Below, one piece after another: positions 1 through 64,000 of a stretch of 64,000 nucleotides of DNA (position 1 is the stretch's first letter; every line of letters begins with the position of its first letter). The notes beneath the pieces are model-generated. The model saw only the letters and a list, made by a program, of their open reading frames with translations, did no database searches and had not been told where the DNA came from. The stretch is from Chlorops oryzae (lineage: Eukaryota; Arthropoda; Insecta; Diptera; Chloropidae), in assembly GCA_020466095.1 (NCBI GenBank), contig CM035808.1, positions 75,199,188 through 75,263,187 on the forward strand. The letters are read 5' to 3'. The position numbers and the translations under genes are program-made.

Positions 1-603
1 AAAATCTCTTGTCAGCATACTTTCTGCCACAAACGCGTCCCGAGGTAAAAAAGGCTTGTTGAAGTCCATAAGTTCTCTATACTTTTCCGCGAAACGAAGA
101 ACGTATATCCCGCAGTCGTTTAAATTAGTTTGTTGGCTGCAATCCGGGTATATCAGTGGCATTGTCTCTTCGTTATATATTACTTTATCCTCCGGAAATC
201 TGCGTCTGGCTTCCCATTGGACTGCTCCTCTAATGTTTCTCGCTATACTGGTGGCATCGTGGGGACGTAGTGAATCGAAAATGTAAATTGTTGGCCAAGT
301 GATCACTGCCAGCATCCAATGATTATGAGCGTGGATAGGGATCATTACCGATTTGTAGTCAAAAATGCTAGTCCTATTCAAAAAACTGCTCAATCGTGTG
401 GCCATTTGGTCTGGGTACTGTTCCATCTTCTCCGTGCATGTATAGAAATGGGTGTCTAGCACATGGATTTCTTTCTTGACGCTCTTATTGATCAGCCATG
501 ACAGGAGTGCGTTTATATGGTCGTCATTTAACCAATTTGTTGCAGTAATATCCGTTAGCGCCGTCCAATCTATTTTTCTTATTTTTCCGTTTTTGGCTGC
601 CAT
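1..603 (-). CDS. Ulp1/SENP-like C48 cysteine protease, partial at window edge
   Basis: This frame runs from an ATG at 601-603 to base 1 without a stop (201 residues visible). It has the C48 fold signature in order: a WLND motif (residues 24-27), His95 in NHWMLAV, Asp110 in YIFDSLRP, Gln158 in CSQQTNLNDCG, and the nucleophile Cys164. All four catalytic positions of Ulp1/SENP SUMO proteases are present with family spacing. It follows the integrase end by about 160 nt in E1, in the place where errantiviruses carry env. The expected reaction is cleavage after a Gly-Gly of SUMO or a related modifier; the substrate is inferred. The C-terminus lies outside the window. No splice acceptor is obvious upstream. 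Confidence 0.85.
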   Translation of the reverse strand, partial: MAAKNGKIRKIDWTALTDITATNWLNDDHINALLSWLINKSVKKEIHVLDTHFYTCTEKMEQYPDQMATRLSSFLNRTSIFDYKSVMIPIHAHNHWMLAVITWPTIYIFDSLRPHDATSIARNIRGAVQWEARRRFPEDKVIYNEETMPLIYPDCSQQTNLNDCGIYVLRFAEKYRELMDFNKPFLPRDAFVAESMLTRDF

Positions 604-766
604 TGAATATTTGCGTTGCTCGTTTGTTGACGTGTCTTTAACTTATGGCAATTGTCTTTTATCGAAAAGACCTTTACTTTCATTTTTTGATGATCACTAT
701 AATAATAATTTGCTTTCATTCTTTCTTTTGTTTTTTTTTTTTTTTGTTGTTGCAATACGTTGTAAG

Positions 767-1132
767 TTATTGCATCGTTTTGCTGACTTTTGTGAACTGT
801 GGTTTAATTAGGTTGGTGTGAAATGTTTTTTCTTTTCCTTTAATTGACAATTTCACATTAACTGGAGTTGGTAGTGCCGTTATTTTGTATGGCCCTTCCC
901 AGATGGGTGACAATTTGTTTTTTCTCGTTTGATTTTTCAGCCAGACTTGGTCTCCTATTTTGAATTTGCGTTCTTTAGATTTCTTATCATAATATTTTTT
1001 GGACTTTTCTTTTGCCGTTTGCTGATTTTTTCGGACTAACTCATGTGTCCGCTGAATTTGAAATTTTAGTATCTTTGCATAGTCGTCCATATTGTATATA
1101 GGCTCTGGTTTCCTTTTCAAATTTACTGGCAA
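767..1132 (-). pseudogene. E1 integrase C-terminal part, frame-shifted from the rest of pol
   Basis: This 121-residue frame holds the C-terminal end of the E1 integrase, with a GDQVWLKN motif and a WEGPYKI motif typical of gypsy integrase C-termini, ending at 767. It aligns with the matching part of E3 at 16990-17523. It is in a different frame from the main integrase. Compared with E3, about 40 nt of the segment after the AMH motif are missing near 1165, which causes the shift. It belongs to pol and is not a separate gene. The run of T bases at 728-743 lies between it and the Ulp1 gene. Confidence 0.8.
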
Positions 1133-3305
1133 ATCTGATTCGAAACCAAAAAGAGTTTTGCAAGGCGTCGTGCATGGCGTTGTTTAGCCATTGATCCCAA
1201 TTACTTCCATCTTCTTTCGCAAAATTTCTTAGGAACTCCGCTAGAGGGCGGTGGCTCCTTTCGAGTGATCCGTTTGCTTGAGGGTGATATGGGGTTGTTT
1301 CCATCTTTTTAATTCCCAATAATTTGCATACCTCTTTAAATAATTTTGAAGTGAAATTTGTGCCATTGTCCGACACTAATACTCTGGGAATTCGGAATTT
1401 GGTTATGACTTCATTAAAGAATGCTTTACCTGCTGTTTCAGCCTCCGCATCAGGTAAAGCAGTACAAATAAAAAATTTTGAAAAATCGTCGATGAAGGTT
1501 AGAATGTATTTGTTTCCGCTAGTTGTTTCCGGCAAGGGACCTACCATGTCCATAAATATTTTGTCGAAGGGTGCATGTGCTATGTTGGTTATTACCATAG
1601 GCATTTTATCTATTCGGGAGCATTTATTCATTTGGCATAACTGACAGTTTTTAACGTAGTCTCTTATCTCTTTATGCATCCCATTCCATTTGTACTGTCG
1701 ACGAATGCGGAAATACGTTGTTAATGCTCCCTTATGACCACCTAAGGGCCCGTCATGAAATGTTTTTAGAACTTTCTTGATGTCCTCCTGGTCTGTTAAA
1801 AAGGTTGCCATATCCTCAATTTCTGCTGCTGCTTCGTTTATTGGTTGTGTTGTGGTGTTTTCTATAACTATCTCTGTTGTTTGGTTTTCGTTTTTTGCTT
1901 TGTTTTGTGCTCTAGTCACTACTGATATGCAATCTTCTGCGAAGGGTAGTCGACTTAGTGCATCCGCATTCAAATTCGCTTTTCCAGATTTATAGCAAAT
2001 TTCGAACTCATATTCAGAGAGCTTATGCCGGAATCGTGCTAATCGTGATGTTTGGTCCTTCAAATTAGCAATACCTTTTAATGGTTTATGATCGGTAAAA
2101 ATCGTGAATTGTCGTCCTAAAAGATAGCATCTGAAATTATTTGTAGCCCAGACAATTGCGAGAAATTCTTTCTCTATGGTTGAATATCGTTTTTCGGTGT
2201 TGTTTAAAGCGCGACTAGCGAATGCAATGGGATGGTCTTCTCCAGGATTTCCTTGCGATAGGACTGCTCCTAAGGCCTCATTGCTTGCGTCTGTTGTTAA
2301 TACGAACGGCTTTGAAAAATCTGCATATGTTAAAAGTGGAGGGCTTATTATTGCTCCTTTCAAGGCTTCCACTGACTTCTGGCAGTTTTCTGTCCAAACG
2401 AAGTTCATATCCTTTTTTAATAATGACGTTAGTGGCAGTAACAATTCTGCTGCGTTTGGAATAAATTTTCTATAGTTATTTGCCGGTCCCAAGAATGCCT
2501 GTAACTCCTTTTTGTTTTTCGGGATTGGGAAATTTTTTACGCATTCTACTTTCCCAGGGTCTGGTAGCACGCCTCTTTCTGAACATTTATGACCCAAATA
2601 GATTACTTCTCTGCGCAAAAATTGACACTTTTCCGTTTGTATTTTTAGTTGATTCTCCCTTAGTGCCTGCAACACTTTCCTTAAACGCAACTCATGTTCG
2701 GTAAGGTTTCTCCCGTATATGACAATATCATCCAAATACACGAAACAGTCGACCCCTTGTAGACCAGTTAACACATTGTTCATTATTCTCTGAAATGTTG
2801 CTGGGGCTCCAGTTAGTCCGAATGGCATTCGTATGAACTCATAGTGTCCCATTCCTGTGCTAAATGCAGTTTTCTCTCTGTCAATTTCATCCAAAAGTAC
2901 TTGATGATACCCGCTTGCTAGATCCAACGTTGTAAAATATCTGCTGCAGCCCAATTGATCGAGAATTTCGTCGATTCGTGGTATTGGAAATATTTGTTTT
3001 ATTGTTTGTTCATTTAATTGCCGAAAATCTACTACCAATCGCCATTTCTTTGTACCATCCGCACCTGCTTTTTTCGGTACCAAAATAATTGGAGCGTTCC
3101 ATGGAGATTTGCTCGGGGCTATGATTCCTTGCTCCAGCATTTCTTTTACCTGTTTGTTAATTTCTGTTTTGTGGGCTTCGGGAAGGCGATATTGCCGGAT
3201 GTTGACTGGTGCTTTTCCGATCACCGTTGGTATTTCTGCTTTATAACATTTGTGTGGCTGAGTGCATCTCCTTTTATATGGAACACATCTGCAAAGTCCT
3301 TGCAT
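1041..3305 (-). pseudogene. pol: E1 pol: reverse transcriptase, RNase H, integrase
   Basis: This 754-residue frame holds most of pol. The RT has LDLASGYHQ (127-135) and the catalytic YLDD (190-193). RNase H begins with TDASNEALGAVL (338-349) and continues to NADALSR (446-452). The integrase has a His517/His524/Cys554/Cys557 zinc site and an acidic triad Asp586, Asp646, Glu682 with a DX35E spacing. The catalytic residues are intact, so the damage is from frame breaks: one base appears missing near 3237, separating it from the protease frame, and the end runs out of frame near 1165. It copies RNA into DNA and integrates it in the nucleus. Confidence 0.9.
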
Positions 3306-4723
3306 ATCGCAAAAAGGGACTGTCGCTCTTCCTCATTCAAAGTATCATTCAACCGCAATGTGTTTATTATTGTATTCAATCTTTCCTCTGACGGTCTATC
3401 TTCGCATACGTTAATTGTTGAATATTCTCGTGTTTGGTAGTCTTCAAAAAGTGAAAAATCTAAATGTTTTCCTTTTTCTAAGTTCACTTTGGTTTCTGAT
3501 GCGTTTAGTACTGTTATATATCCAATTCCTTCTCTTGGTTTCGTTAACGTTTCACCTACATACACCTTTGGGTAAATTTCCATCTTGTGTACCACTAATT
3601 CGTCTGCCAGTAGTCCCGTGTTAATTGGGATTATTCTGGTCGCTCGGGGTGGGATTGTGACAGTCGTTGCTATACAAATCCGTGATCCTCGCTTCAATGA
3701 TGTTAGTGGTAGCGTTGATGTCTGACTGCCTTTTACTTTAAAGGTCAATCGTTTCCTGATTGTGTCCATAATGGTTCTATTCCAGAGCATGTCTCGCCCA
3801 AGGAGTCCATCTGCTGGTAGAGTGCTATTGTATGGTACCACATGCAATTTAAATTGTAATTCAGGATTTTCTTCATGCTGAATATTTATTGATCCAATTG
3901 TTCGAGTATCGCCTCCGAATGCTCCTCTTAAAAACTTCTTCTCATCGTCGTTTATTAGAGTACTTTTAGCTAAGACTTCTCTTTTAACCAAACTTGTATC
4001 GGCTCCTGAATCAACTAATAAGGTGATTTTTCCATCGATAGCCTGTTGACAGGGTATTTCGATGTAAGCATCCTCTTGTGGTGCATTCGCTGAAGCGTAC
4101 ATTATGAGTTTACTAAATTCATTTATAACCATTTGTTTTCCTTTTGATCGAACCATGCTTAATTTTCGCCATACTTTTATTAATAGTGTAATGATTATCA
4201 AAATCCACTCGCACAGGTAGCTTTTTGCTGCACTTGTTATTTCAAAGTAATTATATTGCGTTTGTTTGCCTTGGCATGGCTTAGTTCTTTCCGTTTCCCA
4301 TATATTGTACGTATGATTTTGTATCGTGTCGCTAAATGAAACCTTTTTATTCGACTTTCGTGTTTGCCTTCTTGAATTTTCTTTGTTGTTGTCGAATTTA
4401 ATCTGCATTAGTTTTCGTAGCTCGGATTCCATTTCCTCTTCGCCGGATATACTTTCTTCGTTATTTTTTGATTTTTCCTGATTACCTTTCCAACTAGATA
4501 TTTGTTTTTTATTTTTATCATCTGCGAATTCTGCCCAGTTTTTTCGTCGTATGCATGGTTTTGATTTTTGTGTCGTCTGAGGGGCAGATTGTGGCCTCTT
4601 TTTACTAATTAGTTGGGCATTCCAGTCTGTTGGCCAAGACTGGGCCGTGGTGCGTTTCCCGAATTCTGTTGTTGCTGAGGACAGTTTCTCGAGATGTGTC
4701 CCAATCCTTGGCACTTGAAACAT
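3221..4723 (-). pseudogene. E1 Gag-Pol linker and aspartic protease
   Basis: This 500-residue frame overlaps the end of gag by 115 nt in the -1 frame, so it is expected to be made by ribosomal frameshifting. A charged linker (about 40-160) is followed by a hydrophobic segment (about 168-184, with WILIIITLLI) and then the aspartic protease with LLVDSGAD (DSGAD at 238-242). It should join RT directly, as in E5, but a one-base loss near 3237 ends the frame. The membrane-type segment before the protease recurs in E5 and probably E2 and is unusual for Gag-Pol. There is no methionine start; the nominal start is only the edge of the open frame. Confidence 0.85.
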
Positions 4724-6351
4724 CGAATATCTGATCGGCTGTTGTTTCTATTTAAATTTTGGTTTGAATTTTGCGTGGTTGTCGTTCGTTGTGGTGGTTG
4801 CGGTACTTCTCTTTGTCGTGCATTACCTCGCAAGCAGAAATTATTTGTGCTATGTCCTCTTACTCCACAACGATCGCAAAACAAGCTACCTTGCTTTTTT
4901 CTACAATTTTCGACGGTATGCCCGTGGCGTGAACAGTAGGTGCACATCGGTAGCATCTCTGGCGGTTTGTACTTTTCTGCTTTAGTTATAGTTGTACTTG
5001 CATGACAATTTGGCCCTTCTTCATGCCCATAAGTCCCACATGGCCTACATAATGGTGTGTTCCGTCTTTTGTAGCAAATATCCCATAAGTGGCCGATTTC
5101 CTTGCAGAACGAGCATGCTAAGTCCGTTTGCACAGGCATCACATGTAGCGCGTTTGTATTCACTGTCGTTGTTTGAGCAGCATTAGGAGCTCTTAGTCTT
5201 AACAGTTCTTCCAACTTGTTCGCTGATTCGATTAGCTCCTTAATGCTTGTTCCTGTTAATTTATTTGCTATTTTGTCGTCTCTTAGACCGGTAAGGAATC
5301 GTCTCGCTGTCAAATCATGATATTCGCACAAAGAAGATTTGGCCTCTGGGCCATTCCATTTTTCTTTGATCGCCGCTTCTGCCTCATTGAGATAGGTCTC
5401 CATTCGGGCTCCGAACAGACTCGCTCGCTCTCCTTCTCTTTGAAAACTAGTATCAATATCCAATCTTATATCTTCCAAAGTCCTCCTTGATGCATATGTG
5501 TTCTTCACGAAATGACTCATTTCGTCTAAATTGTTAAATTTCTTGGAATTCATTCTTTCAAACGCGTCTCCTGTCAACCGTTGTTTGATAGCGTTTATAA
5601 CTCCCTGTAAGTGCTCATCATCGACAGTAGATTTAAGAATTTCACATCCTCCGACAAATTTCAGTACCTCCTCCTTAAGTCCTGGCCCTCTTGCTCCCGA
5701 AAAATATGGAACTAAGAGATGCGCACTTCGAATCGCTTCATTTATATTTGTTGCCATTTTAATGTTAATATTAGGAACTGGCTGTTGTGTTGGATTTTTA
5801 GGTTGCTGCGTAGGAATTTCTAACGTTCGTCTTGTTGGAAGCGGGGATGTTTCGCAGATTATTCGCAGCTCTCGTTTAAGGTTACCTATTTCCACCCTGA
5901 GATACTGAACCTCCTTTTCTTTCTCCTTGAGAGCTGCTTTGTCGTGTTCTATGGACTCTGATACGTCTGCTCCGACTACTTCCTTCAGAGCTTCTCTCAG
6001 AGATTCGTTTTGTTGTTCAGACTCTTCTATTAGCAGTGTCTCTTGATCTATTCTATTTCTTAAGGCCTTGCAATTCTTTTGAAGATAACCTACCGTTTCT
6101 TCTAATAATCGAATTTTTTCCTTGGCAGCTTCGTTCAATACGCTCACCGAACTTTTTGATTGCTCTATCAAAAACACTGCCTCTTCTAGCTGGTTAAAAC
6201 GGGATAACGCTACTTGGTTGGTTATTAACGTCAAAAATTCTCTATTTGGATTGATTTCTCTAATTAATTCCCACGCCTCTGCTTGAATAGTGCTAGCGTG
6301 TCCCTCTGATTCCTTCAATTTTTGTTTTAACATATCACACTCTTTTTCCAT
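4609..6351 (-). CDS. gag: E1 Gag with coiled coil and five CCHC zinc knuckles
   Basis: This intact 580-residue frame starts at an ATG about 98 nt downstream of the leader ATG/splice-donor motif. Residues 1-170 are rich in Glu, Lys and Leu with heptad-like spacing, so a coiled coil is likely. Residues about 200-390 look like a retrotransposon capsid. Five CX2CX4HX4-5C knuckles follow at 413-426, 435-449, 470-483, 492-506 and 544-557. Classic errantivirus Gags usually lack such knuckles, so five is remarkable. E2, E3 and E5 carry decayed versions of the same layout. It should form cytoplasmic particles and bind the element RNA. Confidence 0.88.
   Translation of the reverse strand: MEKECDMLKQKLKESEGHASTIQAEAWELIREINPNREFLTLITNQVALSRFNQLEEAVFLIEQSKSSVSVLNEAAKEKIRLLEETVGYLQKNCKALRNRIDQETLLIEESEQQNESLREALKEVVGADVSESIEHDKAALKEKEKEVQYLRVEIGNLKRELRIICETSPLPTRRTLEIPTQQPKNPTQQPVPNINIKMATNINEAIRSAHLLVPYFSGARGPGLKEEVLKFVGGCEILKSTVDDEHLQGVINAIKQRLTGDAFERMNSKKFNNLDEMSHFVKNTYASRRTLEDIRLDIDTSFQREGERASLFGARMETYLNEAEAAIKEKWNGPEAKSSLCEYHDLTARRFLTGLRDDKIANKLTGTSIKELIESANKLEELLRLRAPNAAQTTTVNTNALHVMPVQTDLACSFCKEIGHLWDICYKRRNTPLCRPCGTYGHEEGPNCHASTTITKAEKYKPPEMLPMCTYCSRHGHTVENCRKKQGSLFCDRCGVRGHSTNNFCLRGNARQREVPQPPQRTTTTQNSNQNLNRNNSRSDIRCFKCQGLGHISRNCPQQQQNSGNAPRPSLGQQTGMPN
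4622..4660 (-). promoter_or_regulatory. E1 gag-pol -1 frameshift site (GGGAAAC plus hairpin)
   Basis: On the minus strand GGGAAAC (4654-4660) lies in the correct phase for a -1 slip (G GGA AAC in the gag frame), and the shifted frame continues into the protease frame. Ten bases downstream a hairpin with a perfect 7-bp stem (CCAGTCT with AGACTGG, 8-base loop) occupies 4622-4643. The gag stop follows within about 15 nt. The same hairpin exists in E2 with a compensating base-pair change. Confidence 0.75.
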
Positions 6352-6640: not shown

Positions 6641-6688
6641 TCCTACCGGCTGCGCCATAAATGTTGTATCATCCTACCGGCTGCGCCA
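6641..6688 (-). other. E1 primer binding site for tRNA-Ser, present twice
   Basis: TGGCGCAGCCGGTAGGA on the minus strand is complementary to the 3' end of Drosophila tRNA-Ser including CCA. It occurs at 6672-6688, four bases inside the LTR, and again at 6641-6657, as part of a 31-bp direct duplication that also copies the first bases of the LTR edge. Confidence 0.85.
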
Positions 6689-6969
6689 TAAATGTTGTGT
6701 CGTCTAGGGAGCGCGTCTAAGTAGCTTAACGCAAGGAATTACTCGAGACCGTTTAATATTGAATATAGCATTTATTGATTTACTTTAAGGCGTAACATTA
6801 AATCCTTAAGCTAACTTACTTTTATGAGCTATTCCCTAGCTAACACGGAGATCCACACTTCAACGTCCTGGCTCGTGAGTAGGTGCGTTAAAGTTGAGAT
6901 CTACTAAATACTTCGGTTCACGGTTCTGATCGTAGTCCTCCTCCAGTGCACGAATCTCAGTTTAAATAA

Positions 6970-7209
6970 AGAGATATTGCTGTTCTAGCAATATCGGTTG
7001 TTGCGACACTCTTCTGGGTCATCTCGATTGTTGTTGTTGCGTGCTGCTGTTGCTTAATACTTCTAGCGTCAGCTTTATTCCAGTCTTCAAGAGATATTGC
7101 TGTTCTAGCAATATCGGTTGTTGCGACACTCTTCTGGGTCATCTCGATTGTTGTTGTTGCGTGCTGCTGTTGCTTAATACTTCTAACGTCAGCTTTATTC
7201 CAGTCTTCA
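6970..7209. repeat. 120-bp tandem duplication inside the E1 LTR
   Basis: Two adjacent copies (6970-7089 and 7090-7209) differ at about one position (TAGCGTC versus TAACGTC). Each copy contains the palindrome that lies upstream of the TATA-like box, so the duplication doubles this upstream element. Confidence 0.92.
6973..6995 (-). promoter_or_regulatory. Palindrome upstream of the LTR TATA box (E1)
   Basis: GATATTGC and GCAATATC arms surround a short centre, just upstream of the TATA-like box; it is repeated at 7093-7115. Related palindromes occupy 29665-29689 and 44376-44400 in other LTRs. A dimeric factor binding site is a reasonable guess. Confidence 0.55.
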
Positions 7210-7547
7210 CCTGCTACGTGTTGTTGTTATTATTATTATTGGAGCAGGTCAGTATTTAAGACGATGAACTTCTTGTGCATAGCTTATGCGACATAATTGC
7301 TGACTAGCTGTTTCGGCCATTTCGTCTTGCCGCTCACTCGCCCGATCCAATCGTCTGATGTTCTTAGTATTTGCGATCATTGGCTTTGATTGTTTACGTC
7401 AGCGTTGTTTTATTGATTCTGAACGCCGGTGTTTTCGTTGTTGTACTTTATCGCATATCGAAATAAGGTATAAGAACTGTTTGTGCGGTTGTGACACACA
7501 ACACCTGAATCAGTTCCTTTTTTCAACACAGCTGACTTGATCACACT

Positions 7548-8899: not shown

Positions 8900-8920
8900 T
8901 TAAATTGAATAAAAATTTTT

Positions 8921-13869: not shown

Positions 13870-15905
13870 GATACAATTTTAATGAAATCAAAGCCTAACA
13901 TTAACATTTCTATGTTTTGTTTTTTGCTTCCATTTCTTAAAAATAAAATATATTCCTATTAACTGTGTTATAATTACACTAGTTTACAAAATTAAAAAAA
14001 ATAAATGTTCAGTTGATCCCGCTCCACTTTTTTCATAGATTTTGGGTCCCTGAATCCGAAAACCCCATCGAAAATTTTTTGAATGGTTTGGTTTTTGAGA
14101 TATGACCATTTGAAATTTCGGCTCTTTTTTTTCAAAAGTACTTTCATTTGATGGATCATATCTCGAGATCAAAACAAACTACCTAGTAAAATGATGTACT
14201 AACTTAAAGAATATAAAATTTTAAATCAAAATATGTCCCTTTTTTATGATATTATGGTACAGTGTCAATGTAACATAAGCTAAAAGTTCAAAAAATATTT
14301 TTTTCTATTCAAACTTAAGAAAAAAATGTCATGTTTAAATTAAAAAAAAAACAAATCCTAAGACTGTATTTTTTTTTTGAAAAACCACACGTATAAAATG
14401 AACCCTTGTGAAGAAAACGTGATACCAACGAATAAAATCTATGGGTTAATATTGAATTTATGACCATTTATGTGCAACTTTCAAAGTGCTTCTTTCGTTT
14501 ACACCAACGAGTATGCTTTAATATTTTTAAAATTATGAAAGGCTCTTTATTTATTTTATATTCTTTAAGTTAGTACATCATTTAACTAGGTAGTTTGTTT
14601 CTATCTCGAAATATGATCCATCAAATGAAAGTACTTTTAAAAAAAGGAGCCAAAATTTCAAATGATCATATCTCAAAAATTTTCGATGAGGTTTTCGCAT
14701 TCAGGGACCCAAAATCTATAGGAAAAGTAGAGTGGTGTTTCCTGTACAAAATGGCTGTAAACTTGTGTTATCAATACAAGTGTGCTACTAATGCCATATG
14801 ATATATTGCGATGGAAAATATGCTCTTTTATGTATGGTCTATTTTTAAAACTATTTACTATTATGTCTTCGAAAATGATTGGTGTGTTATTAAGATTAAA
14901 ATTGTTATCAGAGTAAAAATATTATTCTTCCATCATCGCTCGAGAGTTACAAAAATTTTCCTTTTGAATTGTGATACTGCAATTCGAAAAAGGTTTAAGG
15001 GCGTTATTGTTTAATGTTATATTTCTTTGGTCGCAAGTTTGATTTAGAGTCAATTTGTTAGCGTTTTTCACTATGACGGTTCCTTCATCGATATACTTGA
15101 TAAATGTTTTGTTATTGAAAATGAAATTGAAAACGTTCTGGATAGCACAATGCTGACTTCGTTTTCTTGGAACGAGAAAATACTTCCCTCTATTTCGGTC
15201 ACCAACTCATCATTTGCCATTATTTCGAAAAGCTCATTATTAGGGATTGGAGTAATTAGGTTGACTTCTGTCTGTATTAGGTTTCGAGGACCTTAACTAC
15301 AATTATTATTGAATTTGGTTCACGGAACAATATCCCGACTCTAAGGAATTTCAATTTGAAGAAATCAATTTTAATTTTTCTATCTCTTCCGGAGGTAAAA
15401 TGCTTGGGTGTATTATACCGCTATTTGCTGCTGCTATGCTATTCTGAATCCGATTTATTTTGTTTTCGATTTTATTTAATTTAAAGATGTGATCAATGAA
15501 CATTTGGTGTTTTGAGATATTTATGTTTTTGGAGTTTATTGTGTTTATGGCTATCTGTTCATTAAAGCCTTCTATTGCGTTGTGATCATTCTCCACTACT
15601 GTTTTCAGGTGGTTTTTTAATTCTTGTCTGTCCTGATCGTCCATGACACCGACTAACCATTTGGTTCCTGTGCCTTTTGCGTTTATTACCCTTCTCCTTT
15701 GTCGTTTATGCTCGTTAGGAGTTATGGACTGCAATTTTAGTCTAATTCTTTTGATTTAGTTTAATAACAATAATTTGTTGTAACCGTTTAATTTATTTAT
15801 GTATTCTTCCATCGATTTGAGCATACTTGCAATTTCTTGCGGGTGGATTATGTGCAGAGTGGTGAATGCATCCTTCACGATTTCAGTGTTAAACATGTGG
15901 ACCTC
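13870..15905 (-). pseudogene. env: E3 env-like gene (insect errantivirus type), broken
   Basis: Read on the minus strand, an N-terminal part (to about 15735), a basic RRR cleavage-type site followed by a fusion-peptide-like segment (15351-15734), a middle part (about 14815-15010) and a short membrane end (13870-13980) align with the E7 env at 47109-48621. It is interrupted by the fold-back element at 13981-14763 and by several stops and frame shifts. Env proteins of this group are membrane fusion glycoproteins related to baculovirus F protein. This copy cannot be functional. No Ulp1 gene lies between it and the polypurine tract, unlike E7. Confidence 0.75.
13981..14763. mobile_element. Fold-back element with ~200-bp inverted repeats
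   Basis: Arms at about 13985-14215 and 14560-14760 are inverted copies of each other, separated by about 345 bp of AT-rich sequence. The outer ends are AGTTTACA and TGTAAACT. Flanking copies of env sequence (13964-13980 and 14764-14780) look like a target duplication of about 15-17 bp with a few differences. It has no coding capacity; short frames in the arms are mirror images of each other. Confidence 0.75.
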
Positions 15906-16989
15906 AATAAAGCCTTCGTTAGTTTGGGAACACCATCACTCTCCCTTGAGTAGTTGTGATGAATAAATAAATGACAGGAATTATCTGAATAATATAAAGC
16001 TCGTGTTGAGTCACTATGCTGATAATTTTTGCATTTGCATATTCTCTGACTATTTAATTCTACCCCAATTATAGTGACTATTACTTTATTGTGTAATATG
16101 ACAACTATTGCATTTGCATATTATTTTTTATTTAGTTAAAGCTTTGTGTTGATTATTATTTTTCACTAGTGACTTAAGGATTTCGTGAAGGAACCTATAC
16201 TGAGTTTTACAGGTCACCACGCATGCTCTTTGTGATCGTATATCATTTACTATATTGCGTAAATTTATTTTTAAATTTGTCTTTGAATTTGAAAGTGCTA
16301 TATCTAGTGGTATGGCAGTGCCGGTTGGGTTAATGCCAGCCGAACACTCTATTAAAAATTTTGGAAATTCGTTGTTTCTTCGGCAAATTTTTGACGTTCT
16401 CTTATTTTATGCCAAAACTTTAATAGGGGTTTCGGAGTTTCATATTCATATCCTCCAAGCTTTAAATTGCCAATGTTCAATTAAACGAGACTCTTCATTT
16501 CTTTGGTTTGTTATTTTTAATTTACTTTGAATAGAGTTCGATTCTGTTAATTTATATACTGTTTGTATTTTGAAGTACCTGCAGTTAAATGATCTCCTTT
16601 TTTTTCTGCCCAGTAATGATAGAACTCTTTTTCTTCTACTCTGGATAAAATGACTTAATACAATTATGTTCCCACACTATCTACCAGAAATCACTTGTTG
16701 TGTTTACTAGTGGATTTTGCGTTGCGATATATATATTTGGACAATGAACTCCATTTACGTAATTGGGGTGAATGTAATCTGAGCTATTTTGAGTTGTGTT
16801 TTTAGTTTTATTTGGCTATGTTCAAGGCATGGCACGTCAGCATATCTATTTTTGAACTTATTTTTCATGAATGAGTTTTTTGGACTTAAAGTGGTTTTTG
16901 GGTCAGATTTTGCTGCTCGGTTTTTAACCCTTTAACACCTACGCGGCTTAATGACTTTTTTATATCACTAGTTGTTATGTTTTGGTTTA
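15906..16989 (-). other. E3 segment between integrase and env, no clear gene
   Basis: This 1.1-kb stretch lies between recognisable integrase and env. On the minus strand a run of about 80 residues with motifs such as SAGINPTGTAIPLD (near 16300-16360) is open but I do not recognise it. It may be part of the env precursor or a captured sequence. Confidence 0.35.
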
Positions 16990-29480: not shown

Positions 29481-29498
29481 AAAAAAAAAAAAAAAACA

Positions 29499-30191: not shown

Positions 30192-30205
30192 TCCCTCCTC
30201 TCCTC

Positions 30206-45849: not shown

Positions 45850-46475
45850 AATTTTTTTTTTTAGATTATATTTTCTTCCTAAACATTTTATTTCAAACTT
45901 ATTTTGTCTAGTTATTAATAAGTAAAAAATCTTTCCATTTAATTTTACTTGTTTTCCTATTTTCGTTTTCTTTGTGGTTTTATTCTTCTTCATTTCTTTC
46001 AATATTTCCAACAGGGTTTCACTTTCAAATTGTGTTATGGAATTTCGTTCGTTTTCTCATTTTTTTAACAATGCCCCCAGATAGGCTCTACTTATTTGAA
46101 GCGATCCATTTTCCATATCAAAATTTATTGGATGGAACGGTTTTTCTTTCTTTATTCTCGCACAGAATTCATTTGGGAATTTCAAAATTAAAATCCCACA
46201 GTCCACTTGATTCTCTTGTTGCGGATAATTTGGGTAGGATAGTTTAAACTCTCCTTTGAAATTGCAAAAAATTATTGATCTTACTTTAATTTTAAAAAAT
46301 TTATTGTCTCTCCTATTTCCTCTACATCGTTTGGTCGCAGGGAGTCTAATACAAATAAATTGCCCTCAACTATTATAACGAGCATCTAGTGATTGCTCTG
46401 ACAAATTGGGAAAATGAAGTTTTCATATGCCTTCATGGCAACCCTTTTTATTAACGTACTAATTCTTAATTCCCA
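45850..46475 (-). pseudogene. E6 Ulp1-like protease, decayed
   Basis: Translation of the minus strand across frames shows the C48 pattern: ICQSNH (catalytic His at 46389-46391), then a stop where Trp is expected (TGG to TAG, 46386-46388), then FVLDSLRPND with the catalytic Asp, then after a shift QQENQVDCGILILKF with catalytic Gln and Cys (Cys codon 46198-46200). A C-terminal region follows (KQVKLNGKIFYLLITR, to about 45850) that matches the C-terminus of the E7 protein, with a second Trp-to-stop change. The N-terminal part before residue ~75 is cut at 46475. It was once an Ulp1 gene next to the 3' LTR. Confidence 0.8.
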
Positions 46476-46940
46476 CTGTTATTTAAATTGGATTCAAAAT
46501 TGAATTAAATGAAAATACTAAAACATATATTTTTGATTCCATAAAATTTTAATACATACTTCATTAAAAACGATATATTTTTAACTTTTCTTTTTATACA
46601 TTTGGCTCAAGTACAATCAATTGCTAATTTTAAATACTTAGGTTAAATTGTATTCCACTAAGATCGACGTCAGTAAGATCTTATTAACGGCTTACTAACA
46701 CTGCTTTCTGTATCTGTTTTGGTTGAATATAGGATCGCGGGAACATTATTCCAAGACCTTATTAAACAAGAGTGTCAATCGTGCATATACGGGCCTGTGT
46801 TTTTTTTTTGCTGGCTGTCGCCCTGCAAATGCATGCACCGTGTTTGTGCTTAATGTTCTTGTAATTTCCAGCGATCGGGTTGCGCATATTCTTATGCTCG
46901 TGCTGGTGTTGTTGTTGTAGTAGCCAAATTGTCTCTGTCA
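46476..46940. other. Patchwork of three repeated fragments
   Basis: 46475-46531 repeats 30665-30720; 46532-46771 repeats the first ~235 bp of unit R; 46773-46940 repeats 44615-44780 of the E6 LTR. No gene. Confidence 0.75.
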
Positions 46941-47108: not shown

Positions 47109-48621
47109 TTGAAATCCAACCAATCTGGATCGAGACTAAAAATACAACAAAAAATCTCAGTGTTTCAGATTTTTCCCCTGTTGATATGTTTATTCACTGC
47201 GGCCGAGGGAAACCTAATGTCTACACCAATTCCAGACCAAAAGGGATTCGTCGAAATCAACTTGCGGGACACAAACATTGTTGCGGACTCATACACAATC
47301 TAACATATAATCCATCCCAAAGAGGTTTCTACTATGCTGGATTCAATAGAGGCATATATTGATGAAACTGATATATACAGCAAACACCTGTTAAAGCATG
47401 AAATCAAAGCCATTCAAATTAAGCTTAAATCAATAACACCATTCGAATAAAGGCGCATGCAAAGGGGACTGATAAATGCGGTAGGCACTGCAATCAATTG
47501 GTTGTTTTGTATAATGGATGATCAGGATAAACAAGAGATAGAAGATCATCTCAAAATAGCGGTCGAAAATAGCCATAACGCCATGGAGGGCCTAAATAAA
47601 CAAATCGTAATTAATAACCATTTCAATGAAACCCTGGGAGTTATAAGAAAAGCAATAGAACAAGATAAGCAGTTTTTTAAAACTTTGGATAAACGAAATA
47701 AAGAGCTTTCAAAACACCTCCTGTTCAGTGAATAAATGTTTTAACTCAAAAGTATTGAAGATAAAATAAAATTGATACAAGACAGTATTGCGGCGGCAAA
47801 AAATGGATTAATTCACCCCAGCATCCTTACCACAGAGGAGATCGAAAAATTCAAAATCGACTTCCTCAGGTTAAAATTTATATGAGTAGGAATATTGTCT
47901 CATACAGATAATTCCATAATAATTGTCATTAAAGTACCAAAAACAATGATAAAAGCAGAGATTATGCTGATTACAGCAGTCACAAATAAAAATTTTTTGG
48001 AAATAATGACAAACGACGAAATAATTACATCAATTAATAACACAATTTTTACTTACCAAGACAACTCAATTTTGAAAGAACTGAAACGAAGCCGCCATTG
48101 TGCTGTCCAAAACAAATGCCATTTCATTTTTACCAATAGTACCTTCATTCAATACCTGGATGAAGGGACAATAATTGTAAAAAACGCAAGGGGGCTAAAG
48201 TTGTATCAGACCTGCGATAGAAGGAATTTAACAATAGAAAGGAACGCTCTTATCTCCTTCTCGAATTGCAGTATAGAGATTGGAAATGAAAAGTTTTTCA
48301 ATGCAAGATCCATAATGGAAGACCAATTTTTTTATCGAGAGAACACAGAAAAGAAATACGCAAATAACCCAATCATATTCGAAGATGTGGTAGTTGATAG
48401 TTTTAAGAATACGCTCTATATAAAAGAGCTAAAATTCCACAGAAACTTCACATAAGAAATAAGCGGCACGCTTTTCCTTCTAATTATTGGAAGCGTCATA
48501 ATATTCTTTATAATAATTAAAAGAATATCAGTAATTGTGGAAATAAACCAGGACCCAGCACTCGAGAAACAAGAAGATTCTAGTTTTGAAGCAGTCCGTC
48601 AAAAATATCAGGAAGAGGACT
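47109..48621 (+). pseudogene. env: E7 env-like gene, broken
   Basis: The plus strand encodes an insect-retroelement env: a hydrophobic signal segment (ISVFQIFPLLICLFTA, near 47156-47203), an N-terminal subunit to 47450, a basic RRMQR site followed by a fusion-peptide-like segment (47457-47520), a helical region, and a membrane anchor (near 48470-48525) with a short acidic tail ending at 48621. Stops occur at about 47303, 47448, 47735, 47885 and 48455, so it is not functional. It aligns with E3 env. The stretch 46941-47108 before it is untranslated or decayed pol end. Confidence 0.8.
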
Positions 48622-48926: not shown

Positions 48927-51062
48927 ATGGGTGAAAGTAACACCCTAATAAGAAATCGGGAATATAATTTTTTGATTGAGAATAATCGGTTCAATGACAT
49001 TCATATAGATGTTTTCTTGTATTGGATTAAAATTACACATAGATCGGAAAAAAGTATACACATATTTAGTGCATTCACTTATACAGGGATCAAATTAGCT
49101 AGATTAACTGACAATGGTAATATTTCTGAGTTTCGAATACGTTCTTTGACAAAAGGAATTGATATTAATAATATTAGAACCTTAATTTTCTTAATATGCG
49201 AAGAGTATCATTGGATGTTCGTCATAGTCCCCCTTAATGTTGTATACATCTTGGATTCACTGCAACCACATAATACAAAGGATATATATAATAATATAGA
49301 ATACTTTATTAAGCAGTTCAAATATATTCATCACCTAAATAAAGACGAAGAATTAAAATGGGTATACCCTAAATGCCCACAGCAACAAACTTCAATAGAT
49401 TGCGGTTTGTTAGTGATGCGATTTGTTCATGAACTTTTTAACTACAACGGAGAAAAGGGAATAACAGTTTGGCTGATAAATCCCCGGTCTGACACATAGA
49501 TGGCGTCGCTAGTATTAAATGCATATTATTTTTATATAGTGGCAACCTTCAAATGATTCGTGTCAAAATTTGACGTCTGAAAGTCAATTAGTTTGTGAGA
49601 TAGAGCGTCTTTTGTGAAGCAACTTTTGTTATTGTGAAAAAAATGGAAAAAAAGGAATTTCGTGTTTTGATAAAATACTGTTTTCTGAAGGGAAAAATTA
49701 CAGTGGATGCAAAAACTTGGCTTGATAATGAGTTTCCGGACTCTGCCCCAGCAAAACCAACAATAATTGATTGGTATGCAAAATTCAAGCGTGGTGAAAT
49801 GAGCACGGAGGACGGTGAACGCAGTGGAAGCCCGAAAGAGGTGGTTACCGACGAAAACATAAAAAAAAAATTCACAAAATGATTTTGAATGACCGTAAAA
49901 TGAAGTTGATCGAGATAGCAGAGGTCTTAAAGATATCAAAGGAACGTGTTGGTCATATCATTCATCAATATTTGGATATGAAAAAGCTCTGTGCAAAATG
50001 GGTGCCAAACGAGCTCACATTTGACCAAAAACAACAACATGTTGATGATTCTGAGCGGTGTTTGCAGCTGTTAGCTCGAATACACCCGAGTTTTTGCGTC
50101 GATATGTGACAATGGATGAAACATGGCTCTATCACTACACTCCTGAGTCCAATCGACAGTCGTCTGAGTGGACAGCGATCGGTGAACCGTCTCCGAAGGG
50201 TGGAAAGACTCAAAAGTCCGCTGGCAAAGTAAAGGCCTCTGTTTTTTGGGATGGGCATGGAATAATTTTTATCGATTATCTTGAGAAGGGAAAAACCATC
50301 AACAGTGACTATTATATGTCGTTATTGGAGCGTTTGAAGGTCGAGATCGCGGCAAAACAGCCCCATATGAAGAAGAAAAAAGCGTTGTTCCACCAAGGCA
50401 ACGCACCGTGCCACAAGTCATTGAGAACGATGGCAAAAATTCATGAATTAGGCTTCGAATTGCTTCCCCACCCACCGTATTCACCAGATCTGGCCCCAGC
50501 GACTTTTTCTTGTTCTCAGACCTCAACAGGATGCTCGCAGGGAAAAAATTTGGCTGCAATGAAGAGGTGATCGCCGAAACTGAGGCCTATTTTGAGGCAA
50601 AACCGAAGGAGTACTACCAAAATGGTATCAAAAAATTGGAAGGTCGCTATAATCGTTGTATCACTCTTGAAGGGAACTATGTTGAATAATAAAAACGAAT
50701 TTTGACAAAAAAATGTGTTTTTCTTTGTTAGACCGGGGACTTATCAGCCAACCTGTTATAACCCGAATTCAGAAAAATTTGAAACAAACACTTTAAAAAT
50801 AACTCTAACTTTTCTGGCGAATTTATTAAAAGAATGGGAGGGAAAAGAGATACAAATAAACAAATTATCAAAAATTGAGCGAGAAAATGTAACAAAACTA
50901 TTAAAACACATGAAATCGAGGAAAAAAGGCAGGCAACCTGTAGAGAAAAGAGTACATTTAAACAATCAAACTTTCATTTTAGAGGTAAGCAGAAATAATA
51001 AATTTAAAATAAATATTAGCCAGGATTTGGCTGCCTGTTGGTTTAAAGCCATGACCTTATAA
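48927..51062 (+). pseudogene. E7 Ulp1-like protease, split by mariner
   Basis: The 5' part (48927-49463) encodes 179 residues with His95 (EYHWMFVIV), Asp110 (VYILDSLQP), Gln153 and Cys159 (CPQQQTSIDCG), the full C48 catalytic set. The C-terminal part continues after mariner (50757-51062) with a basic region and LNNQTFILEVSRNNKFKI, matching E6. The two parts are one base out of frame even after removing mariner, so a small indel also exists. It follows E7 env on the same strand. A good splice acceptor (polypyrimidine tract then TATCAG, ending at 48809) lies upstream of its ATG. Confidence 0.82.
49464..50756 (+). mobile_element. mariner (irritans subfamily, Himar1-like), inactive
   Basis: The 1293-bp element has inverted ends of about 30 bp containing GATAARTCCCCGGTCTGACAC-type sequence split between the two sides, and TA target duplications at 49462-49463 and 50757-50758. 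The transposase (49643-50689) is very close to the horn-fly Himar1 type, with MEKKEFRVLIKYCF at the start and ALEGNYVE-like end. The first catalytic Asp is in VTMDETW. The second (HQDNAP) has become Gly (GGC, 50397-50399). Shifts occur near 49870, 50090 and 50498. It interrupts the E7 Ulp1 gene. Irritans mariners are known for horizontal transfer. Confidence 0.9.
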
Positions 51063-55300: not shown

Positions 55301-55309
55301 TCGCCATAC

Positions 55310-57738: not shown

Positions 57739-58715
57739 TGTAACGACCTATTTCTGCCGGGGTGGGCTCAGCCTAACCCAGGGTCGTACAAGAAATTTAT
57801 ATTTCTAACGTAGGTTTCTAAAGGAATAATTCAAGGGTTTTAATTCAATGTAATTCAATATAATTTCTTTGTAATTCAATATAATTCAATGTAATTCAAT
57901 ATAATTCAATGTAATTCGATATAATTCTCTGATTTGTATGCGTCACGGGATTTCCTCAAATAGCGAAGCTTCACTGTAGTCTCATACGGTCTCTAGAGCG
58001 GGGTTCTACTGTGGTTTCCCAGTGCGGGGTTTTACTGTTGTCCCAGAGGTCGAGGTTTTGCTGTGGTTTCTCGACGTGAGGGTTGACTGTTGTTCCAGAG
58101 GTCGAGGTTTTACTGTGGTTTCTCGGTGTGGGGGTTGACTGTGATTTCCCCGTACGAGGTTTTACTGTTGCTCCAGAGATCGAGGTTTTACGGTGTATCC
58201 TGCGAGGATGTTCTTGAGAAAGACGCACTGAGTGGCTGACAACAGGATCCTAGTTTCCTTGTGAGGCATAGTCTCGTTACCAGAAACTAGAAACAGGCTA
58301 TCATCCTTCAGATTTGTCCAATTTCTTTGAATCGTTTGTGAGGCAAGGTCTCGTTACCACGATCGAAGAATTTCTCTTGAGCTGTACTCACACTGACTGA
58401 CTTTCTCTTGCGTCGTCGTCTGCTTTTATACTATTCTTCTGAGCTGACCTTTGGACTTTTGAGTCACGTTTTCAGCGTGTGTCGACCTTTGGACCCAAAT
58501 CATGCGTTACTCGTGTGCTGACCTTTGGACTACGATCATGCGTCGTCTGCATGCGTTCTGCGTGCTGTTGTTCTGCGTTGTGCCATTCTGTTGTGTGAGT
58601 TGTTGTTGCGCATGCCTGTTTTCGTTCTTCTTGTAATTATTGTTGTCATTTGTGGGCGTTGTTTTCTGTTCATTGTTGTTTGTGCATTGTTTGTGACGAT
58701 TTTGTGGTCGTCACA
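57739..58715 (-). repeat. E8 3' LTR with polypurine tract
   Basis: The 977-bp LTR is bounded by TGTGACGACC and GGTCGTTACA, which are imperfect inverted repeats. The polypurine tract GGAAGAAAGGAGGGAG lies at 58716-58731. Inside are two tandem repeat zones: TAATTCAATR units (57838-57930) and about three and a half ~55-bp units around CGAGGTTTTACTGTTG (58005-58195). A minus-strand frame across the latter (57971-58228) is repeat-driven and unlikely to be a gene. Confidence 0.85.
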
Positions 58716-58849
58716 CTCCCTCCTTTCTTCCGAAAACGTGACGCCGTCGTTGTCATGCCTGTACGCTCGTGTGGGGTCCCATCCGATATAACTCAGCTTT
58801 AGTTTGCCCGTGATCAGCTGTGTTTGATATTTTCGTGAGTTTTCCATAT

Positions 58850-60808: not shown

Positions 60809-61542
60809 TCAGGACGGAAAAGGTACGTCGTTATTTTGTGTTAGCGGTTGCTCTGTGTTTTCATTTTGTTGCAGGTCGGTTTCATCTGTGTGGAACGGCT
60901 TGAGCTGGGAGATATGGGCCGTTTTTATTGCTTTGCCGTCCCTCAGTTTCACAATCACTGGGGATGAGAAGGACTCCACGAAAAATGGTCCATCGAATTT
61001 CGGCGCCAGCTTCGCTGCGAAGTCATCGACAGCTTTCGACAGAGGGTGAGTTCGAAGGAGTACTTGTTGTCCTCGATAGGGTTTCCAGGGTCGTCGTCGT
61101 AAGTTGTAGGTGCGGGCTTGCTCCTGGCTTGCTTTTGTTAGGTTAATTCCCACAATTTTGAAAATTTCTTGCAGTCGGTTGCGTCGTTGTTCGACTGTTA
61201 GTGCCTTCGTCCCTGTACCTACTGTTGTCTCATCGAAGACGCTTTTTGGTAGTCGGGGCTCCCTGCCTTGTGTTAACATGGCTGGGCTGAAACCTGTGGT
61301 GTCGGAAACACTTGTGTTTATGGCCAACATGATCTCTGGTAGTGCCTCGTCCCAATGTTTGTGCGATGACTGTGTATATTGTGCGATCATTGTTTTGATC
61401 GTTCGGTTCGCTCGTTCGGTGGGATTTTCTTGTGGTGTGTATGGGGCCGTACATTGATGATGTATACCCATTTCTTCCAAGAATTTCTCAAAGTTGCGAC
61501 TCGTGAATTGTGTCCCATTGTCAGTCAACAAGACCTTGGGTA
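60809..61542 (-). CDS. pol: E8 integrase, C-terminal half, after a frame break
   Basis: The frame continues the integrase from VPKVLLTDNGTQF through NPTERANRT to the C-terminus at 60809 (FDGPFFV and HISQLKPF motifs). Asp and Glu of the integrase triad are 35 positions apart. It is out of frame with the upstream pol at a run of six C bases on the plus strand (61543-61548), so a base change in run length, or a sequencing error, is the simplest explanation. Confidence 0.85.
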
Positions 61543-64000
61543 CCCCCCGTATCGTGCGATTATTCGCTCTCGAAGGGCTTTCCGGACTGCGTCGGTGGTA
61601 GCGCTTCGTAGTGGTATTAGTTCTACCCATTTCGAAAATTTGTCGAAAAATACTAATAGTGTTGTATTTCCGTGTATAGAGCGTGGCAATGGTCCCACGA
61701 AGTCTGCACATAGGATAGCCCATGGTTCGTCTGCTATTTTAGTGAGCATATATCCCGCTGGTTTCTGTTGATTTACTTTAAATTGTTGACAACTTTTGCA
61801 TCGAAACACATGTTTTCGTATGTCTTTGATCATGCTTGGCCAGAAATATTTTTTCGCTGTTCGGAGGAATGTCTTTCGTATGCCCAGATGACCAGCTGTT
61901 GGGTGATCGTGATTCTCTTTTAGTACTCGATCGAGATCCTTCCTCCTTACACACAGTTTCCAAGCCACGCTGTCTTCATCATCTATGTTTGGGGGTAAAT
62001 GCCTATATAGGTTTCCATTTTCTATTATATATTCAGGAAATTTGTGTGGTTCTTTTCCAATTTCCTCCATTTTCCGTGTGACCCAGTCTTTAGGAAGAGG
62101 CGGTATTTCTTCCTCATGTATGCGTCGTGTTGTCTCCAATGGATCTCTTGATAGAGCGTCAGCAATGACGTTCTCTCTTCCTCTCCTATAACGGACTTCG
62201 AAGTTATATTGCTGGAGCTCTAGTGCCCATCGTGCGATGCGTCCTGACGGGTTTTCTATGGAATTTAGCCATTTTAATGAGAGGTGGTCGGTGATAACGA
62301 TAAAATTATAGCCCTCAAGGTAGTGTCGCATTTTGCGAATTCCCCAAACGATCACCAGGCACTCCTTTTCAGTGGTTGAATAATTTATTTCGGGTTTGTT
62401 AAGGTGGCGGCTTGCATAAGCTATCACTTTTTCTGTTCCCTCATCGTCTTGTGTCAACACTGCGCCAAGCCCGTAGTCGCTGGCATCTGTTTGTAAAATG
62501 AATTGTTTGTTGAAATCTGGGCATGCAAGGATGGGTGCTTCGGTCAATTTTTTTTTTAATTTCTCGAATGCTTGTTGGTGCTCCATAGTCCATAGCCATT
62601 TTGTTCCTTTTTTAAGTAGTGTTGTCAGAGGATATACAGTGTCTGCGAATTCGGGTACGAATCGTCTGTACCATGATGTGATTCCGATGCACTGTCGTAG
62701 CTCCTTTATGTTCGTGGGTGGTTTGAGGCGCTCGATTGCTTCAATTTTTGACGGGTCTGTTTGTATGCCTTTGCTGCTTACCATATGACCAAGGTATTTG
62801 ATTTCGGTTTTTAGAAATTCGCATTTTTCTGGATTTATTTTGAGGTTGGCCTCACGTAATCTTCTAAAAACTTCTACTAAATTCGTCATATGTTCTTCCA
62901 GTGTTCGACCTAGTACGATGATGTCGTCGAGGTACGCAAAAGCGAACGGTTCTAGTTCAGGCGTTATTACTGAGTCTAATGCCCGTTGGAAAGTTGCGGG
63001 TGCTGAGTGTAATCCGAACGGCATTACCTTCCATTGGAAAAGGCCCCGTCCGGGCACAGTGAACGCGGTATACTGTTTGCTTGTCTCGTCCATTGGAATT
63101 TGCCAGTAGCCATTTTTAAGGTCCAGACTGCTAAAAATTTTTGCATCCTTCAGACGGTCCAAAATGTGGCTTATTCGTGGTAATGGGTATGCGTCAGGGA
63201 TTGATTTAGCATTTAGTTGCCTGTAGTCGATGCAGAGTCTCCATTTGCCATTTTTCTTTCGAACGAGTACTGTAGGTGCACTGTATGGGCTGTTCGACGG
63301 TTCTATGCATCCCTTTTCGAGGATATCGTCGATTTCTTTATTTATAATTTCTTGTTTTGCAGGATTTTGTGGGAAGTATCTGGCTTTGATTGGGACCTCA
63401 TCCTTTACTCTTATGTGGTGTTTGGCAATATTCGATGGCCCCTCCATGCTTTCGAAACGTTTGATTTCCCTCTGGATTATCTCTTCGGCTTCCGCTCGGG
63501 TGATTTGTTCGCTTTTTGAGATCTTTTCTGTGTCGCCATTGAGTTCTCGTATTGATAGTGCATTCCAGTTGGCGGCTTGAATCCTTGGAATTTTTATACT
63601 CTGGCCTGCAATCTCCAACTGTGCGTCTAGCGCTCCCAGTGTGTCCATGCCGAGTATCACGTCGTCTATCACATGTTCCAGTATTGCTAGTTCGATTTGT
63701 AGTTGTTTTTGTCCAAGCTGTAGTGTGGTTGTGGTTGCCTCAGTTACGATGGTTTTTCTGCCGTCTGCTAGTTGTATGTTGGCACGAATTTGGTGTGTGT
63801 GACTGGAGTCCCGAATTTGTTTTGCCATAGCCCTACTAATGTAGTTCCTTGTGGCCCCGGTGTCGATTGTTGCTACTATGGGTTTTCCTCCGAGTGTAAC
63901 ATTGGCAACGATGGTGTTGTTATTGAATTTTAAATTCGAGGTCTCCTGTAGGGGCCTGCCGCTGTGCCTCGTTATTTGCGGTCCCCTTGTTCGTTTCCCG
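61525..64000 (-). CDS. pol: E8 pol: protease, RT, RNase H, integrase N-terminal half
   Basis: The frame is open at base 64000 and runs to 61525. The protease active site DTGA lies at about 63853-63864, upstream of the first internal ATG (63828). Counting from that ATG, RT has DLKNGYWQI (236-244) and YLDD (299-302), RNase H TDASDYGLGAVL (447-458) and ITDHLSLKW, and the integrase zinc site His642/His647/Cys677/Cys680 with catalytic Asp709 in CADFVGPLP. All catalytic residues seen are intact. The frame ends at a six-base homopolymer where the integrase switches frame. Confidence 0.92.
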   Translation of the reverse strand, partial: GKRTRGPQITRHSGRPLQETSNLKFNNNTIVANVTLGGKPIVATIDTGATRNYISRAMAKQIRDSSHTHQIRANIQLADGRKTIVTEATTTTLQLGQKQLQIELAILEHVIDDVILGMDTLGALDAQLEIAGQSIKIPRIQAANWNALSIRELNGDTEKISKSEQITRAEAEEIIQREIKRFESMEGPSNIAKHHIRVKDEVPIKARYFPQNPAKQEIINKEIDDILEKGCIEPSNSPYSAPTVLVRKKNGKWRLCIDYRQLNAKSIPDAYPLPRISHILDRLKDAKIFSSLDLKNGYWQIPMDETSKQYTAFTVPGRGLFQWKVMPFGLHSAPATFQRALDSVITPELEPFAFAYLDDIIVLGRTLEEHMTNLVEVFRRLREANLKINPEKCEFLKTEIKYLGHMVSSKGIQTDPSKIEAIERLKPPTNIKELRQCIGITSWYRRFVPEFADTVYPLTTLLKKGTKWLWTMEHQQAFEKLKKKLTEAPILACPDFNKQFILQTDASDYGLGAVLTQDDEGTEKVIAYASRHLNKPEINYSTTEKECLVIVWGIRKMRHYLEGYNFIVITDHLSLKWLNSIENPSGRIARWALELQQYNFEVRYRRGRENVIADALSRDPLETTRRIHEEEIPPLPKDWVTRKMEEIGKEPHKFPEYIIENGNLYRHLPPNIDDEDSVAWKLCVRRKDLDRVLKENHDHPTAGHLGIRKTFLRTAKKYFWPSMIKDIRKHVFRCKSCQQFKVNQQKPAGYMLTKIADEPWAILCADFVGPLPRSIHGNTTLLVFFDKFSKWVELIPLRSATTDAVRKALRERIIARYGGYPRSC

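Follow-up and report, generated by a model that had tools for sequence, protein, structure and literature searches.

Ulp1-like cysteine proteases are known as passengers of several kinds of mobile element. In the parts of the cited papers on which this account draws, Mutator DNA transposons are described with an Ulp1 domain and Ginger1 DNA transposons with a C-terminal Ulp1 or OTU domain (PMC2836005), oomycete Cryptons with a C48 peptidase (PMC3212892), and the nematode NeSL and Utopia retrotransposons, which are of the kind without long terminal repeats (non-LTR), with an N-terminal Ulp1-like protease (PMC4640811). In the genome of the fly Chlorops oryzae, an Ulp1/SENP-family cysteine protease (Peptidase_C48, here C48) is a stable accessory gene of two lineages of Ty3/gypsy-type LTR element, and its presence there suggests interference with the SUMO tag that the host uses to silence such elements. 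The analysis concerns a window of 64,000 nucleotides, the whole stretch of DNA analysed (C3:75199188-75263187 of an assembly of 442,144,510 bases in 1044 contigs), which holds one element, E1, at its left end and another, E8, at its right end; loci fetched from the assembly are given L numbers.

With Ginger1 the C. oryzae elements have in common a Gypsy-like integrase and an Ulp1-family domain on one mobile element. In contrast, Ginger1 transposons move by cut-and-paste, have terminal inverted repeats and carry the domain at the C-terminus of the transposase, whereas the C. oryzae elements contain a reverse transcriptase (RT), LTRs, a primer-binding site (PBS), a polypurine tract (PPT) and the C48 as a separate gene; a Ginger1 identity, which would go with terminal inverted repeats and no RT, was discarded because RT and LTRs are present. 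The NeSL and Utopia elements are alike in that a retroelement encodes an Ulp1-like protease, but they are non-LTR elements with a restriction-like endonuclease and the protease at the N-terminus of the element protein, and their hallmarks (no LTRs or integrase, an N-terminal protease in the RT protein) are not those of the C. oryzae elements. Cryptons and Mutator elements likewise bear the domain on a mobile element, but are DNA transposons. No LTR element with an Ulp1-like domain was found in the open-access literature, so far as its text was accessible, with subscription papers and Repbase lying outside the search, and a term search of the main text of one study of insect endogenous retroviruses (PMC12992720) found no mention of SUMO, of a phosphatase or of an accessory or additional open reading frame. 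The presence of C48 in LTR elements is provisionally taken to be new relative to the known DNA-transposon and non-LTR carriers, and would extend Ulp1-like cargo from these to LTR retroelements.

Four stretches of the window hold Peptidase_C48 (Ulp1/SENP) genes, one of them broken and one split by a mariner transposon. The Pfam family PF02902 is matched at 1-603 on the minus strand (E=1.2e-15), at 48927-49499 on the plus strand (E=2.8e-12) and at 58850-59740 on the minus strand (E=5.2e-22), and the element C48s score 47-79 bits against a gathering cut-off of 20.7. An earlier note, made from the letters of the window, had placed four C48 genes here; all four are present, although the copy at 45850-46475 is broken and lies on the minus strand and that at 48927-51062 is interrupted by the mariner insertion. 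The catalytic His, Asp, Gln and Cys that the note reported can be read in all four. Each has relatives elsewhere in the genome, behind pol or env, such as L042 for the E1 gene (99%), L040 for the 46 kb copy (93%), L034-L037 and L039 for the 48.9 kb copy (about 90%) and L009/L010 for the E8 gene (99.6%). The assignment of E1 and E8 to different pol lineages is likewise upheld, because their pol sequences are only 39% identical.

E8 is read on the minus strand in the order pol, integrase, about 1 kb of further sequence, C48, PPT and LTR. By Pfam, pol occupies 61525..63999, running past the right window edge, and the C-terminal part of the integrase 60809..61723. The C48 gene (58850..59740) is intact, encodes 296 amino acids and has SENP matches; behind it come the PPT, read from the sequence at 58716..58731, and a 3' LTR of 977 bp at 57739..58715, which ends TGTGACGACC...GGTCGTTACA. 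The 5' LTR was traced immediately beyond the right window edge (L033), where 652 bp are matched with 1 mismatch, the start of the LTR not being found. E8 is flanked by both LTRs and its C48 therefore lies inside the element. In the E8 type as a whole the order RT-RNase H-integrase is present (Pfam), paired LTRs, a PBS-like site, a PPT and a target-site duplication are all found, and no env is recognised. A conserved TATAAAAG and a pyrimidine-rich CAG are seen by eye upstream of the C48 start in the window (about 59740-59900, minus strand) and in L012 and L015, the CAG standing about 135-150 bases before the ATG; the former is a candidate internal promoter and the latter a candidate splice acceptor for the E8-type C48.

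E1, also on the minus strand, begins with a 5' LTR at 6693..7503, which pairs with a 3' LTR found in L045, beyond the left window edge (811 aligned positions, 6 mismatches, 3 gap columns). A PBS-like TGGCGCAGCC starts at 6688, and the PBS of the E1 type is, we assume, tRNA-Ser-like. There follow a gag with a CCHC finger (4609..6351; Pfam), a protease region with an RVP match (3221..4723), pol with RT, RNase H and integrase (1041..3305; Pfam) and the 5' part of the C48 gene (1..603), which is cut by the window edge and continues in L032. Its frame closes about 251 bases past the edge, giving about 285 amino acids in total with a basic C-terminal tail. Beyond the edge come env (L032) and then the 3' LTR (L045), and the E1 C48 is therefore placed between pol and env and is not the last gene. 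The scanned piece of E1's own env reaches no Pfam family, and related loci match it by tblastn; the env of L017 matches Gypsy (E=7.7e-20) and Baculo_F (2.3e-07), which is the errantivirus/baculovirus-F type. Judged on sequence, the E1 type is errantivirus-like, with an env: it resembles errantiviruses in gag, pol, the Gypsy/Baculo_F-type env of L017 and the LTR of L022 (TGTTGTG...CAACA), but differs from them in the extra C48 and, in L017 and L018, in a tyrosine phosphatase as well.

Comparable units are found elsewhere in the genome. LTR pairs enclose pol-C48 at L009, L010, L012, L013 and L015, and E1-type elements at L022/L029 and L027/L031, and several C48-bearing copies lie between LTRs that are 98-100% identical. 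The mismatches between the LTRs amount to 2/923 in L012, 0/948 in L013, 1/850 in L015, 0/959 with 18 gap columns in L010 and 1/636 in the E1-type L022. All five copies read by eye have a 4-bp target-site duplication (AAGT in L012, AACC in L013, AGAG in L015, TGAT in L010 and GTAT in L022).

Across the two pol lineages, C48 is found in four arrangements. In the E8 type the order is gag-pol-C48, with C48 as the last gene; in E1, L022, L023, L025 and L027 it is gag-pol-C48-env. In a third arrangement C48 follows env in sense orientation (L017, L018, L028, L034-L037, L040, L041 and window copies), and L039 has pol directly before C48. In the fourth, env is followed by an antisense C48 with a PPT and an LTR start behind it (L020); L016 has an LTR start and nearly the same C48 as L020, with no env within the stretch read. 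The proposal that C48 is the last gene of its element thus stands for the E8 type, agrees with C48 lying behind env in the env-C48 type, and fails for the E1 type, with its env and 3' LTR beyond C48. The antisense C48 (L020:7514-8413, L021 and L016) shows an ATG and directly behind it GTAAGC...TTCTAG, an apparent intron; retrotransposition should leave an intron in place when it runs antisense to the genomic RNA, so the two features would fit together. In L024 two internal deletions fuse C48 in frame to env; splicing was rejected as the cause of the fusion because overlaps of 8 and 15 bp mark the ends of the two missing stretches, which therefore look like deletions. Beside the C48-bearing elements of L020, L026 and L028 stand tandem repeats whose periods are about 163, 122 and 150 bases, respectively.

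The linkage of C48 to such elements was followed through the assembly. A search with the E8 C48 gave 136 matches (the best 132 of 592 candidates scored), and one with PF02902 listed 150 (150 scored of 513 candidates). One PF02902 match, at 162 bits (G000:C3:45475548, L044), reads as an ordinary host Ulp1, and the other 149 listed score no more than 79 bits. A search with the E8 pol returned 60 rows, the best 59 of 7579 candidates being scored, with 34 at 89-100% identity, 25 at 60-62% (a sister family) and one short piece that was set aside. Behind 33 of the 34 listed E8-type pol copies there is an E8-type C48 match in the same orientation no more than 6 kb away, most often at a distance of 1.4-1.9 kb; these 33 include some fragments, and the lists compared lacked a few of the fragment rows. 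The 34th copy lies in a rearranged region with no C48 within 6 kb. Twenty loci were picked so as to cover different families (L009-L028): in 16 of them pol or env precedes C48 in the same orientation, in two (L020, L021) the env is oppositely oriented, and in the other two (L016, L019) the map shows neither gene. Ten more loci, taken from other rows of the PF02902 listing and in several cases of one family (L034-L043), all carry pol or env sequence ahead of C48 and in its orientation.

These counts bear on whether the C48 genes are chance neighbours, pieces of host SENP genes beside insertions, or else a passive cargo without function. Such an origin could draw on the stops in 25 of the 150 listed matches (125 are stop-free, by hand count) and on the 14 of 37 E8-type C48 matches longer than 800 bases that have no listed E8-type pol within 6 kb upstream (23 have one), but two of those 14 (L011 and L014), once fetched, do have upstream pol pieces, and the host-like Ulp1 at 162 bits stands well apart from the rest. 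Chance juxtaposition was ruled out because of the 33/34 linkage at near-constant spacing, the LTR pairs and the target-site duplications, and with the signs of selection given below we regard chance or functionless cargo together as very improbable. The earlier note had named, as signs of chance, other copies without the gene or C48s beside single insertions; what is found is LTR pairs, 4-bp target-site duplications and purifying selection in most family pairs, and its view that the genes are parts of the elements is supported.

The ratio of nonsynonymous to synonymous substitution rates (dN/dS) of C48 and a comparison of C48 and RT phylogenies, both proposed in the earlier note, were obtained. 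By the Nei-Gojobori method, applied to 21 pairs which share sequences and are not independent, dN/dS is 0.09-0.25 in 8 of the 9 pairs with a dS of 0.2-1.3, for example 0.13 for E8/L012 (0.10 trimmed), 0.23 for E8/L011 and 0.09 for L026b/L027. The close pair L022/L023 gives 0.25 and three pairs are identical. Third positions account for 58-63% of the C48 differences within families, 50-51% between families and 44% in L017/L028. In most family pairs C48 is under purifying selection. RT is more constrained, with a dN/dS of 0.03-0.07, and the protein identity of C48 compared with that of RT is 51.5% vs 91.2% for E1/L022 and 77.5% vs 95.8% for E8/L012; C48 changes faster than RT, as is expected of a host-facing protein. 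The RT and C48 trees of 12 elements have the same split between E8 and E1 types and the same place for L017, but differ in the position of E1 relative to L022, a fork that the C48 tree does not resolve. In a tree with four SENPs, 19 element C48s fall on one side (support 66/37).

In sequence and predicted fold the element C48s are nearest to the SENP/Ulp1 deSUMOylases. Trp23, His99, Trp100, Asp114, Gln164 and Cys170 do not vary among 12 element C48s and the host-like protein, and the two Trp are taken to be the tunnel Trp of the family. Single-sequence matches to the PDB are led by SENP2 for E8 (4e-17) and by SENP7 for E1 (2.5e-10) and the 48.9 kb copy (1.2e-07). A Foldseek search with an AlphaFold model has SENP or Ulp1/Ulp2-type SUMO proteases as its first 26 hits. 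Over sequence and fold together the best matches are SENP1/2/5/7 and Ulp1/Ulp2, ahead of SENP8. When the E8 or the E1 C48 alone was the query, protein databases yielded 362 and 31 candidates, respectively, and no match reached E<=0.001. With the host-like Ulp1 added to an alignment used as query, 1254 proteins did so; 120 of these public proteins were listed, to which the L017 C48 is 21-31% identical, and the 15 inspected look like cellular SENP1. Viral contig searches returned nothing in three cases and two weak matches in another, and Rfam and tRNA scans were empty.

That the enzyme acts on NEDD8 or ubiquitin instead of SUMO is conceivable, given that NEDP1/SENP8 and the XopD/NopD-type enzymes have the same fold, but the profile matches SENP8 only at 9e-06, far more weakly than SENP7 at 3.9e-29 (SENP2, 7.1e-22), and we think such a specificity unlikely. 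Still less probable is a particle-maturation protease like the core enzymes of adenoviruses and poxviruses, which would cut Gag or Env: poxvirus core proteases do occur, weakly, among the viral fold matches, but sequence and fold are much nearer to SENP/Ulp1, the best viral fold matches are cysteine proteases of algal viruses, and an aspartic protease is already matched in E1 and, weakly and below the cut-off, in the pol of E8. An adenovirus-like or NEDP1-like assignment was accordingly rejected as first choice, the profile and fold matches favouring SENP/Ulp1. What the element C48s add to the catalytic domain that they have in common with cellular SENP/Ulp1 (L044) is the basic C-terminal tail, seen in both types and missing from the frame of the host-like gene.

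The place of the gene, the selection on it and the class of the enzyme all speak for a deSUMOylase in the service of the element, and from there we infer an anti-silencing step. The C48 would be produced as a protein of its own, by splicing or through an internal promoter, would enter the nucleus, where the basic tail may anchor it to nucleic acid or chromatin, and would strip SUMO from host chromatin or transcription factors, most likely host silencing factors, so that SUMO-dependent silencing of the element's own LTR would be weakened and transcription from the LTR favoured. In the parts of the sources drawn on, the SUMO machinery is required in Drosophila for Piwi-linked silencing (PMC8733420), and repression of Ty1 by the yeast Nup84 complex goes through Ulp1, with decreased SUMOylation of factors not yet identified being proposed to activate Ty1 (PMC8585004). 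It is pore-tethered Ulp1 that represses yeast Ty1, and the link therefore runs through SUMOylation and not simply through more Ulp1.

An alternative is that C48 helps replication or integration by deSUMOylating Gag, integrase or DNA-repair factors during cDNA integration and gap repair. The available text on Ginger1 proposes a role in the activation of DNA repair for its transposases with Ulp1/OTU domains (PMC2836005), and in elements of the E8 and E1 types the gene that follows integrase is C48. In these types, however, C48 is a separate frame with its own start, unfused to integrase, and in others it stands behind env or antisense, so that there is no fixed link between C48 and integrase; a helper role of this kind is rather improbable.

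A silencing-counteracting deSUMOylase gene, kept as a stable accessory of two LTR lineages, is to our mind the best explanation, with a probability of about 0.45. Several observations weigh against it. None of the 25 copies of the sister pol family has a C48 among the matches listed (the best 132 of 592 and the best 150 of 513), which suggests that such elements can live without one. The dN/dS is 0.48 for L017/L028, the ninth pair in the dS range of 0.2-1.3, and 0.43 (L012/L015, trimmed), 0.50 (L017/L018) and 0.86 (L012/L014) for very close pairs, while six more divergent pairs are saturated and give no ratio; the fast change of C48 can also mean weaker constraint. L043 has a Tyr at the catalytic Cys, and in the window's 48.9 kb copy the first conserved Trp is missing. 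Confidence in the AlphaFold model is low overall (mean predicted local distance difference test score 55, predicted template-modelling score 0.54), and enzymes of the C48 fold can also act on NEDD8 or ubiquitin.

Were the explanation to hold, a deSUMOylase-like gene that is under selection and changes fast would actively counter the host, which silences LTR elements partly via SUMO, and the C48-bearing elements would offer a directly testable handle on the arms race between them and SUMO-dependent silencing linked to Piwi-interacting RNAs (piRNAs).

C48 is not the only enzyme to have been captured. The integrase frame of L017 continues into a tyrosine phosphatase domain (PF00102, E=4.3e-72) whose HCAAGIGR and WADQG are intact and whose nearest solved relatives are PTPRS/LAR; this receptor-type phosphatase is found at L017:4229-5704(-) and L018:4739-5455(+), in an env-bearing LTR element. 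A remnant of such a gene (PF00102, E=6.6e-13) is present in the window at 16131..16406 on the minus strand, between the integrase and env remnants of a third element; the env remnant spans 14676..15755 on the same strand, with a Baculo_F/Gypsy match in 15354-15755. The 3' half of these endogenous retroviruses is thus reshuffled in gene order, orientation and extra enzymes.

In a broader and more doubtful reading, animal LTR retroelements would carry host-derived erasers of signalling, the deSUMOylase and in some elements the receptor-type phosphatase, which switch off SUMO-dependent, piRNA-linked silencing; C48 would have been gained ahead of the split of the present families and handed from one pol lineage to the other, and in one family would have re-entered antisense with its own intron and start. 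The passage between lineages is proposed because the tails of both types align profile-to-profile, with an hhalign probability of 95% in a single comparison, a sequence-to-profile test being not significant. If all of this were true, the elements would encode a silencing suppressor in animals comparable to the viral suppressors of RNAi.

The two remaining C48 copies of the window belong with env-C48 elements. The 48.9 kb copy is preceded by an env remnant (47451..48452, plus strand; family matches) and consists of a catalytic part at 48927..49463 and a C-terminal tail at 50757..51059 (family matches), both on the plus strand and separated by a mariner insertion with a Transposase_1 match (49464..50756, plus strand, ends approximate and set by family matches); its family, which is intact in L035 and L036, is of the env-C48 type. 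The broken 46 kb copy (45847..46490, minus strand) has its catalytic part at 46060-46490 and its tail at 45847-46056; its pieces match the other C48s of the window, and its relative L040 has env and then C48. A possible fifth piece, a tail at 53503-53790 in the earlier note, was dropped: a profile of 13 C48 tails recovers the tails of the 46 kb copy, the 48.9 kb copy and E8, but this stretch is not among its matches at E<=10 and has no match in any of 35 loci at 1e-8. Elsewhere in the window, positions 25069-35014 contain two inverted copies of a sequence of about 3.9 kb, 94% alike, which flank a central part of about 2.2 kb; by eye, the frames there resemble those of a non-LTR element.

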